A stretch of DNA of 64,000 nucleotides, taken from NCBI GenBank assembly GCA_003246455.1, contig QKAF01000110.1, positions 87,926-151,925 on the forward strand. Reading direction: 5' to 3'. This document shows, in pieces, positions 54,945 to 59,070 of this stretch. Position 1 is the first letter of the stretch. Every line of letters starts with the position of its first letter. This DNA comes from Bacteroidota bacterium (GTDB lineage Bacteria > Bacteroidota > Ignavibacteria > SZUA-365). The position numbers and the translations under genes are program-made. The notes under the pieces are model-generated. The model did no database searches and had not been told where the DNA came from. It was given only the letters and a program-made list of their open reading frames with translations.

Positions 54945-55526
54945 TCAATCAAGAAAGCGGACAGGGATCTGCAGTGCTTCTTCGAGGCGCTGCAGATATT
55001 CGTCCCGCGATATCTCGAAGGCGCCGAACCGGAGGAGATGCGACGTGGTATACTGCACGTCCAGCAGCGTCATCCCGCGGTCATTCATCCGGGCGCAGAG
55101 CGCAGCCATCGCGACCTTTGATGCGTCGCGCTTCAGGAAAAACATCGACTCCCCGAAAAACGCCCCTCCCATCGACACGCCATACAGCCCCCCGGCCAGT
55201 TCCCCGTCCTGCCATGCTTCGACCGAATGCGCATACCCCAGCTCATGGAGTGCGACGTATGACGCGATAATCGCTTCCGAAATCCACGTGTCGTCGCGCG
55301 CGGCGCAGTGCCGCATCACGCTTTCGAAACAGGTATTGATGCGGATCTCGAATCTTCCGGATTGGAGGGTTTTACGGAGACTGCCGGAAATGTGCAGCCG
55401 GGAGGGTTCAATAATCGTGCGCGGATCGGGACTGTAGAGCATGATCGGCCCCTCCCTGCCCTCCGCCATGGGAAAAATGCCCGAGGCGTACATGGTGAGC
55501 AGGTCGGAGACGGAGATGGCTGTCAT
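54945..55526 (-). CDS. aat: Leucyl/phenylalanyl-tRNA--protein transferase
   Basis: 193 aa; YASGIFPMAEGREGPIMLYSPDPRTIIEP, HSVEAWQDGELAGGLYGVSMGGAFFGESMF. Confidence 0.95.
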   Translation of the reverse strand: MTAISVSDLLTMYASGIFPMAEGREGPIMLYSPDPRTIIEPSRLHISGSLRKTLQSGRFEIRINTCFESVMRHCAARDDTWISEAIIASYVALHELGYAHSVEAWQDGELAGGLYGVSMGGAFFGESMFFLKRDASKVAMAALCARMNDRGMTLLDVQYTTSHLLRFGAFEISRDEYLQRLEEALQIPVRFLD

Positions 55527-55529
55527 GGA

Positions 55530-56411
55530 TCATTGCTCCCGTTCGTCGTCCATGTCCTCTTTCAGCCGCTGCAGGGTTTTAAGCGACGATACGCCCAGGA
55601 CGCGTGCCACGGTCTCGAGCGGTTTCCCGGCCTGAAGCGCCGACGCTGCATAGGTATTCCGCAGCATCGAGGGGGTGATTTCATTCATGCCGGCGTTCCG
55701 TCCGACGCGTTTCACCAGCTGGTCCACCGCTTGCTGGGTCAGCGCGGTCCCGTCGTAGGTAATGAACAGCGGTTCCTTCCGCAAACGCTTGGCCATGATG
55801 GCCACGCCGCGCCATCGCATGTACTGGCGAAGCGCGTTCTGCGCGCGGGATGTCAGGTAGACGAAGCGGGTGGTCTTGCCGCGCACGCCCTTGATGAAGA
55901 GGCGGGCCTCACGCGGGGTCATGTGCACATCACCGACGGTGATCGCACAGAGTTCGCTGCTGCGCAGCCCGCTGTGCAGCAGCAGCAGGATGACGGCGGC
56001 CTCGAGGGGACCGGGATTCCGTTCCGCCGTGCGGGCCAGCAGCAAGGCGTCCTTTCGCGGCAGCACGATCGGTGCGCGGGGTTCCGCGTTGATCCCGCTT
56101 ATCGCGGAAGCCGGGTTGTTCTCCATCGCGCCGTTCTGCACGCAGTATTCGAAAAACTGACGCAGCGCCGTGATTTTCCGGTTCACGGAAGCAGGTGAGG
56201 AATTCCTTGTCAACAAAAAGGTCCGGAAATCCTGGACATCGCTTCGCGTCAGCTGGGTCAGCGCAAATTCTTCCCCGAACGTGTTTCCGCACCACTGGGA
56301 AAACTGGCGAAGGTCGTTCGCATAGGAGCGGATAGTGTTGAGGTGCTTTCCCTCCCGGGTGAGATGCGCTTCAAAAGCCAGTTGTATTTCGAGTACCTGT
56401 TGTCCTGCCAT
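55530..56411 (-). CDS. Xer-type tyrosine recombinase homologue lacking catalytic Tyr/His
   Basis: 293 aa; SAM-like N-domain, LLHSGLRSSELCAI, ITPSMLRNTYAASALQAGKPLETVARVLGVSSLKTLQRLKED. Confidence 0.87.
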   Translation of the reverse strand: MAGQQVLEIQLAFEAHLTREGKHLNTIRSYANDLRQFSQWCGNTFGEEFALTQLTRSDVQDFRTFLLTRNSSPASVNRKITALRQFFEYCVQNGAMENNPASAISGINAEPRAPIVLPRKDALLLARTAERNPGPLEAAVILLLLHSGLRSSELCAITVGDVHMTPREARLFIKGVRGKTTRFVYLTSRAQNALRQYMRWRGVAIMAKRLRKEPLFITYDGTALTQQAVDQLVKRVGRNAGMNEITPSMLRNTYAASALQAGKPLETVARVLGVSSLKTLQRLKEDMDDEREQ

Positions 56412-56535
56412 AATTCAGGAGAGACGTCTTTTTTCTGTAACAGCGAATCAATCAGGAAATATCTCACGCCGGAGAGAAAAAACAAAACTCCGTCATTCCA
56501 ACGCACGGATTCCGCATTGAAACAGCCGCAGCCGC

Positions 56536-56604: not shown

Positions 56605-59070
56605 ATGTCAACTCCCACCGAAAAGATCCTCCGCGTCAGCATCGAGGACGAACTTAAAAGCTCCTATATAGATTATTCGATGTCGGTTATCGTCTCCCGC
56701 GCGCTGCCGGATGTGCGGGACGGTCTCAAGCCCGTGCATCGCCGTATCCTGTATGGGATGAACGAACTGAGCCTCACCCCGACCCGTCCGTACAAGAAAT
56801 CCGCCCGTATCGTCGGAGAAGTGCTCGGCAAGTACCATCCGCACGGCGATTCCGCCGTGTACGATACCATGGTGCGCATGGTGCAGGATTTCTCCCTGCG
56901 CTATCCCCTGGTGCAGGGACAGGGCAACTTCGGTTCCGTCGACGGTGATTCCGCCGCCGCCATGCGTTATACCGAAGCGCGCATGGCCCCGATCGCCCTT
57001 GAAATGCTGCGGGACCTGGAAAAAGACACGGTTGATTTCCAGCCGAATTTCGACGATTCGCTGCAGGAACCGCGCGTCATGCCTGCCCTGCTGCCGAATC
57101 TGCTCGTGAACGGGACAGGCGGTATCGCCGTGGGAATGGCGACCAACATCCCGCCGCATAACCTCGGCGAAATCATCGACGGACTGTCGGCGATGATCGA
57201 AAATCCGGATATCAGTCCTGAAGACCTGATGAAGCTGGTGAAGGCGCCGGATTTTCCGACCGGCGGCATCATTTTCGGCTACCAGGGTGTGCAGGATGCC
57301 TACCTGACCGGCCGCGGGAAGATCATCGTGCGGGGACGCGCGAACATCGAGACGCTGAAGAACGGCCGCGAGAATATCATCATCAGCGAACTTCCCTATC
57401 AGGTGAACAAGGCGAACCTGATCGAAAAAATCGCGGAACTCGTCAAGGCCGGGAAAATCGAAGGCATCAGCAACATCCGCGACGAATCCGACCGCGACGG
57501 CATGCGCATCGTGATCGAGACCAAGCGCGACGGCAACCCCGAGGTCGTGCTCAACAACCTGTACAAGCACACGCAGATGCAGGTCACCTTCGGTGCGATC
57601 ATGCTGGCCCTCGTCGACGGGCGGCCGAAAGTGCTCGCGCTGAAGGAGATCATGCAGCATTTCCTCGAGTTCCGGCACGAAGTCGTGATTCGGCGCACGA
57701 AGTTCGAACTCGCCGAGGCAGAGCGCCGCGCACATATTCTCGAAGGCTACCTCATCGCGCTCGACAACATCGACGAGGTCATCGAAACGATCAAGAAATC
57801 GCGGGATGTTGATGCGGCGCGCAGCAATCTCATGCGCAAATTCAAGCTCAGTGAGATCCAGGCCAAGGCCATTCTCGACATGCGTCTCCAGCGCCTGACC
57901 GGTCTCGAGCGGAAGAAAATCGAGGACGAGTACAAGGAAACCATCAAGCTCATCGCGCGTCTCCGCGGGATCCTCGAAAACGCGACGCTGCGCTGGCAGG
58001 TCATCGGTGACGAACTCCGCGCCCTTCGCGACAAGTACAGCGATGATCGCCGCACGGAGGTCATTTATGACTACGCGGACTTCAAACTCGAGGACATGAT
58101 CGCCGAAGAGGACGTCGTCATTACGATCAGCCACCAGGGCTTCATCAAACGCACCCCGGTCAGCACGTATCGCCGCCAGGGCCGCGGCGGGAAGGGCGTC
58201 GCCGGTTCGGCCACGCGTGACGACGATTTCGTCGAACACATGTTCATCGCCTCGACGCATCACTATATCCTGTTCTTCACCGACAAGGGACGCTGCTACT
58301 GGCTGAAAGTGTTCGAGGTGCCGGAAGGCGGCCGTACGGCACGCGGACGCGCGATCATCAACCTGATCAGCAAGCAGAAAGATGAGAATGTAGCGGCCTT
58401 CGTCACCGTGAAGGAATTTACCGACACCCAGTACATCATGATGAGCACCTCGCTCGGAACCGTCAAAAAGACCGTTCTCAGTGCGTACGGCAATCCGCGT
58501 TCCACCGGAATCATCGCCATCAATCTGTCGGAAGGCGACAACCTCATCGACGCGAAAATCACCGACGGCAACAGCGATATCCTTATCGCCACCCGAAACG
58601 GGCAGGCGATCCGCTTTACGGAATCCGACGTCCGCGACATGGGACGAAACGCGACCGGTGTACGCGGAATCGCGCTCGCCGGTGACGATATCGTCATCGG
58701 TATGGTCGTGGGACGCCCGAACGGGAACGTTCTGGTGGTCAGCGAGCACGGCTACGGAAAGCGCAGCGAGGTTTCCTCCTACCGCCATACCAAGCGCGGC
58801 GGCAAAGGGGTGATCACGATGAACGTCACCGCGAAAACCGGGCCGGTACTTTCGATCAAGGACGTTTCTGATCAGGATGACATTGTGATCATCACCTCAC
58901 GCGGCCAGGTCATCCGTCAGCACGTCAGGAAGCTCCGCGTCATGGGACGAAACACCCAGGGCGTCCGACTCATCGATCTTCGCGACGGGGACTCGATCGC
59001 CGACGTGGCGAGAGTATCCTCCGATACAGAAATCGAGAACGGATCGGAAGCGACGGACGACGTACAGTAA
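56605..59070 (+). CDS. gyrA: DNA gyrase subunit A
   Basis: 821 aa; [43 protein letters not shown]-terminal beta-pinwheel repeats incl. GRGGKGV. Confidence 0.97.

Follow-up and report, generated by a model that had tools for sequence, protein, structure and literature searches.

A third, catalytically dead Xer-type protein kept across a bacterial order, with a possible role in non-cutting DNA binding

What remains for a Xer-type tyrosine recombinase to do when the residues that cut DNA have been lost? The question is raised by a gene in a 64,000-nucleotide stretch of a Bacteroidota genome (hereafter, the window; contig QKAF01000110.1), which the initial annotation described as encoding an intact, full-length, apparently catalytically dead DNA-binding relative that might act, structurally or in regulation, as the partner of another Xer. 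The open reading frame starts with ATG, encodes 293 aa, and has no internal stops; its product is indeed a full-length two-domain Xer-type tyrosine recombinase, with both domains above the Pfam cut-offs (Phage_integrase, 73 bits; Phage_int_SAM_1, 48.5 bits). The Pfam matches and the predicted fold (see below) place it in the tyrosine recombinase superfamily. Features of the locus are listed in Table 1.

Table 1. Coordinates of the dead Xer gene, its key codons and helices, and its neighbours in the window.
Feature	Position	Strand	Basis
Dead Xer-type tyrosine recombinase gene (293 aa)	55530..56411	-	ORF, Pfam, orthologue alignment
Leu283 codon, site of the nucleophilic Tyr	55563..55565	-	alignment; L/V/F in 15 orthologues
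Val274 codon, site of the GH-motif His	55590..55592	-	alignment
Ser248 codon, site of the HxxR His	55668..55670	-	alignment
Arg251 codon, second catalytic Arg, invariant	55659..55661	-	orthologue alignment
Arg150 codon, first catalytic Arg, invariant	55962..55964	-	orthologue alignment
Helix 226-239 (QQAVDQLVKRVGRN region), equivalent of major-groove helix K; 7/14 residues invariant	55695..55736	-	model and alignment; XerH helix K in PMC5241119
Helix D, N-terminal core-binding domain, residues 73-92; 8/20 invariant	56136..56195	-	model and alignment
aat (leucyl/phenylalanyl-tRNA-protein transferase), following in the same unit after 3 nt	54945..55526	-	gene order
gyrA, divergent neighbour, context and not part of the unit	56605..59070	+	Pfam, gene order
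Promoter-like element TTG-N19-GATATTTC upstream of the dead Xer gene	56456..56485	-	conserved in f1 genomes, G007 included

Catalytic positions were read from an alignment with canonical XerC and XerD, the copies from the same genome included. Here, the His of the HxxR motif is replaced by Ser248, the His of the GH motif by Val274, and the nucleophilic Tyr by Leu283, exactly as the initial annotation had read them, down to the codon of the missing Tyr; R150, E153, and R251 are retained. The hairpin, 3 residues longer in this family than in XerC/D, carries K174 in the window copy. In Xer proteins, the Tyr is followed by helix N, which joins neighbouring subunits (PMC3646895). This C-terminal helix is absent from the dead Xer protein, a loss that the annotation did not remark on: the chain stops about 10 residues past position 283, without the HP[RK] tail.

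Orthologues (473–552 bits; 45–91% identity) were found in 15 of 16 genomes sampled from this order, other Xers reaching at most 128 bits in the same search, and are present in every genome whose assembly covers the locus. The remaining genome (G012, 74% complete) yields no gyrA or aat match either, hence the locus is probably just not assembled there. Outside the order, no member was found in a 396-genome sample of the phylum, where the best match scores about 126 bits; named public relatives are Bacteroidetes/Ignavibacteria MAGs.

The Tyr, both His, and helix N are missing in 15/15 orthologues. Position 283 is Leu in 11, Val in three, and Phe in one; position 248 is Ser in 10, Thr in four, and Met in one; position 274 is Val in 11, Thr in two, Ile in one, and Met in one. 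No orthologue has an intact R-K-H-R-H-Y set, and no conserved Tyr is seen in the C-terminal part past residue 254. Since the 14 further orthologues share the losses, sequencing error and an alternative alignment register are both ruled out. Among the residues reported earlier as retained, both catalytic Arg are invariant, whereas the hairpin Lys holds for the window copy and not as a family trait, position 174 being Lys in nine orthologues and Arg in six. R150, E153, R177, R182, R251, and N252 are invariant; the invariant basic residues are R28, R78, R84, R150, R177, R182, R189, R195, R201, R209, R211, K234, R235, and R251.

Loss of catalytic residues is also what a decaying pseudogene or a mobile-element remnant might show; decay is refuted by the constraint on the gene. 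The frame is open in 15 genomes, in fixed synteny with housekeeping genes, and dN/dS of close genome pairs is 0.015–0.10 (below 0.11 throughout); dS is near saturation in several of these pairs, so that protein identity is the safer measure, and by this measure the dead Xer exceeds both XerC and XerD in every genome pair tested. No close relative was found in viral contigs, and the matches in phages and plasmids are only generic recombinases of about 30% identity. We regard a pseudogene or remnant as extremely improbable.

In the tree, all 15 dead Xers group in a single, fully supported clade whose stem measures 2.9 changes/site; the clade falls on the XerC side, the long branch making its sister group uncertain. 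Between the R-II helix and the Tyr segment, both included, entropy is 0.70–1.26 in the dead Xer family vs 0.04–0.24 in the XerC/XerD encoded alongside it. The reverse holds for helices B, C, D, E, I, and K and for the hairpin, where the dead Xer family is the more conserved. In XerH, DNA contacts are carried by the N-terminal helices and helix K (PMC5241119). Judged from sequence conservation, constraint has left the catalytic C-terminus and is concentrated on the putative DNA-binding helices; helices C, E, and I are likewise very conserved although not all of them have to point towards DNA, and they may have a protein–protein or other role. Repurposing predicts this pattern: rapid change at first, then strong constraint on parts other than the catalytic ones.

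The retained residues could also mean that the protein still cuts DNA, via another nucleophile or a Tyr supplied in trans: besides the invariant R150, E153, and R251 and the Lys or Arg at 174, Ser276 and Thr253, close to the active-site region, do not vary in the family. Both His are lost, however, and the C-terminal segment that bears the nucleophile is relaxed (entropy 1.1–1.6) and lacks a conserved Tyr, and we consider residual cutting very unlikely. The losses in 15 orthologues, the purifying selection, and the focus of conservation on helices that probably face DNA lend good support to the earlier description as a catalytically dead DNA-binding relative.

The AlphaFold model predicts a complete two-domain recombinase fold (pLDDT 87.5), domain orientation being uncertain at a pTM of only 0.61. 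The nearest PDB structures to the model are XerA, archaeal Xer, Cre, integron integrase, and XerH. The best PDB match by sequence is chain 14 of 9i5v (401 aa), named "Ribosome-associated translation inhibitor RaiA"; its residues 10–288 align as a Xer-type recombinase, hence the chain is either a Xer–RaiA fusion or mislabelled.

The search for a second intact Xer and a dif site, proposed in the initial annotation, recovered both. Intact XerC and XerD were recovered across the order, with no XerD from the G013 assembly, and 10 of the 16 genomes have a perfect dif match, in the window's genome ACTTCCTATAATAAACATTATGTAAAGT. With these present, the dead Xer is not needed as a recombinase for chromosome dimer resolution. 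It might nevertheless serve as an accessory or antagonist of XerC/XerD, occupying or flanking a dif arm and modulating dimer resolution without cutting; the presence of XerC and XerD, and of a perfect dif in most of the order, the window's genome included, is in line with such a role, as are the closeness of the dead protein to Xer proteins and the retention of both Arg. Against it, the subunit-linking helix is missing throughout the family; the recognition helix K starts with TQQ, vs SSR in XerC and SRM in XerD of these genomes; the gene is unlinked to xerC, xerD, or dif; the dif flanks, compared by eye, share nothing beyond the 28 bp except a stem-loop; and the dead Xer is missing from other members of the class and phylum. 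A role at dif is a serious alternative, though an unlikely one, and the proposed partnership with another Xer, possible in itself, finds no support in linkage, helix N, or the recognition helix. A regulator or DNA-binding protein that acts on its own is at least as good a fit as a Xer partner.

The dif site of the window's genome lies at G000:C161:1056-1078 (L163), with equivalents (L155–L166) in other genomes that are identical to ACTTCCTATAATAAACATTATGTAAAGT or close variants. The stem-loop follows about 25 bp downstream, e.g., CCCTGCTTACAGGG and CCCGCCGTCACAGGCGGG, and by eye its arms covary between genomes. One assembly (G005) has two near-identical dif matches, C1:741-763 and C10:153861-153883, which may reflect duplication in the assembly or the integration of an element at dif.

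The gene is directly followed by aat in 15/15 genomes, and a divergent gyrA faces it in 14/15. In the exception (G007), the dead Xer gene and aat have relocated together, away from gyrA and with a four-base overlap, and the promoter-like TTG-N19-nAnnTTT has travelled with the pair. The layout is compatible with co-transcription, and the dead Xer and Aat are probably made together from a shared promoter. This linkage suggests that the function could be tied to Aat (the N-degron pathway) or to gyrA, e.g., through regulation of its own unit or of gyrase expression. However, aat is present in 11 of the 12 genomes searched in the class beyond families f1 and f3, and has no Xer relative in its vicinity there; gyrA is not adjacent in G007; and the upstream intergenic region has no conserved operator-like inverted repeat or palindrome, only the Bacteroidota-type promoter being conserved. 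ATATTTCNNGATT occurs in a single copy in the genome. We consider a function in Aat or gyrA control doubtful.

Among known proteins, XerC and XerD (TIGR02224 and TIGR02225; Xer subgroup of simple tyrosine recombinases) share with the dead Xer the two-domain fold, the length, R-I, E, and R-II. The dead Xer differs in lacking the Tyr, the His, and helix N, in its longer hairpin, and in occurring as a third gene in genomes that already have true XerC and XerD; its best NCBIfam matches, XerC (157.7 bits, cut-off 335) and XerD (152.7 bits, cut-off 330), stay far below the thresholds, hence by catalytic set, family score, and helix N it is not an active XerC or XerD. Streptococcal XerD-like proteins, like the dead Xer extra Xer-like proteins of the chromosome, are not known to act at dif. 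They are of a different lineage (NF002685/PRK02436; 34.7 bits for the dead Xer, cut-off 178).

The sole direct precedent found in the literature on XerD-like and inactive tyrosine recombinases is MrpR (YopR), the master repressor of the Bacillus prophage SPbeta, which has a tyrosine-recombinase fold with catalysis lost (PMC10516654). The dead Xer likewise combines the recombinase fold with an incomplete active site, and both proteins have Val at the GH/W-His position. The losses otherwise differ: MrpR retains K and Y and lost R-I and His, while the dead Xer lost the Tyr and both His and retains both Arg; and MrpR is prophage-borne, whereas the dead Xer is chromosomal and order-wide, in synteny with housekeeping genes across 15 genomes. 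MrpR is an earlier example of a tyrosine recombinase that has lost catalysis and works as a DNA-binding protein; a chromosomal, order-wide, operon-fixed form with different lost residues was not found in the literature searched.

The reading that we prefer, with a probability of about 0.55, is that of a third Xer-type protein that has passed down one order by vertical inheritance, is catalytically dead, and has been repurposed as a non-cutting DNA-binding protein, perhaps a regulator of the MrpR type. It would have arisen from a XerC-side (or related simple) tyrosine recombinase by loss of the nucleophile, both His, and the subunit-linking helix N, the fold and the phosphate-gripping Arg pair being kept. 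The protein would then clamp a specific DNA site as a Xer monomer or dimer does, with R150 and R251 gripping a backbone phosphate without cleavage; it would thereby bind DNA without recombining it, most likely to regulate transcription much as MrpR does. Somewhat more tentatively, at a little short of even odds, this chromosomally fixed, order-wide paralogue may be a non-cutting factor (a regulator or an organiser of a chromosomal site) that recognises a site of its own, different from dif, beside a complete XerCD/dif system.

The authors of the MrpR study suspected a wider use of dead tyrosine recombinases as DNA-binding proteins (PMC10516654). Automatic annotation would probably label the dead Xer an ordinary recombinase, and such proteins are therefore probably overlooked. 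The dead Xer would be a chromosomal case of this kind, kept across an order, in which selection has shifted from catalysis to the parts that probably face DNA.
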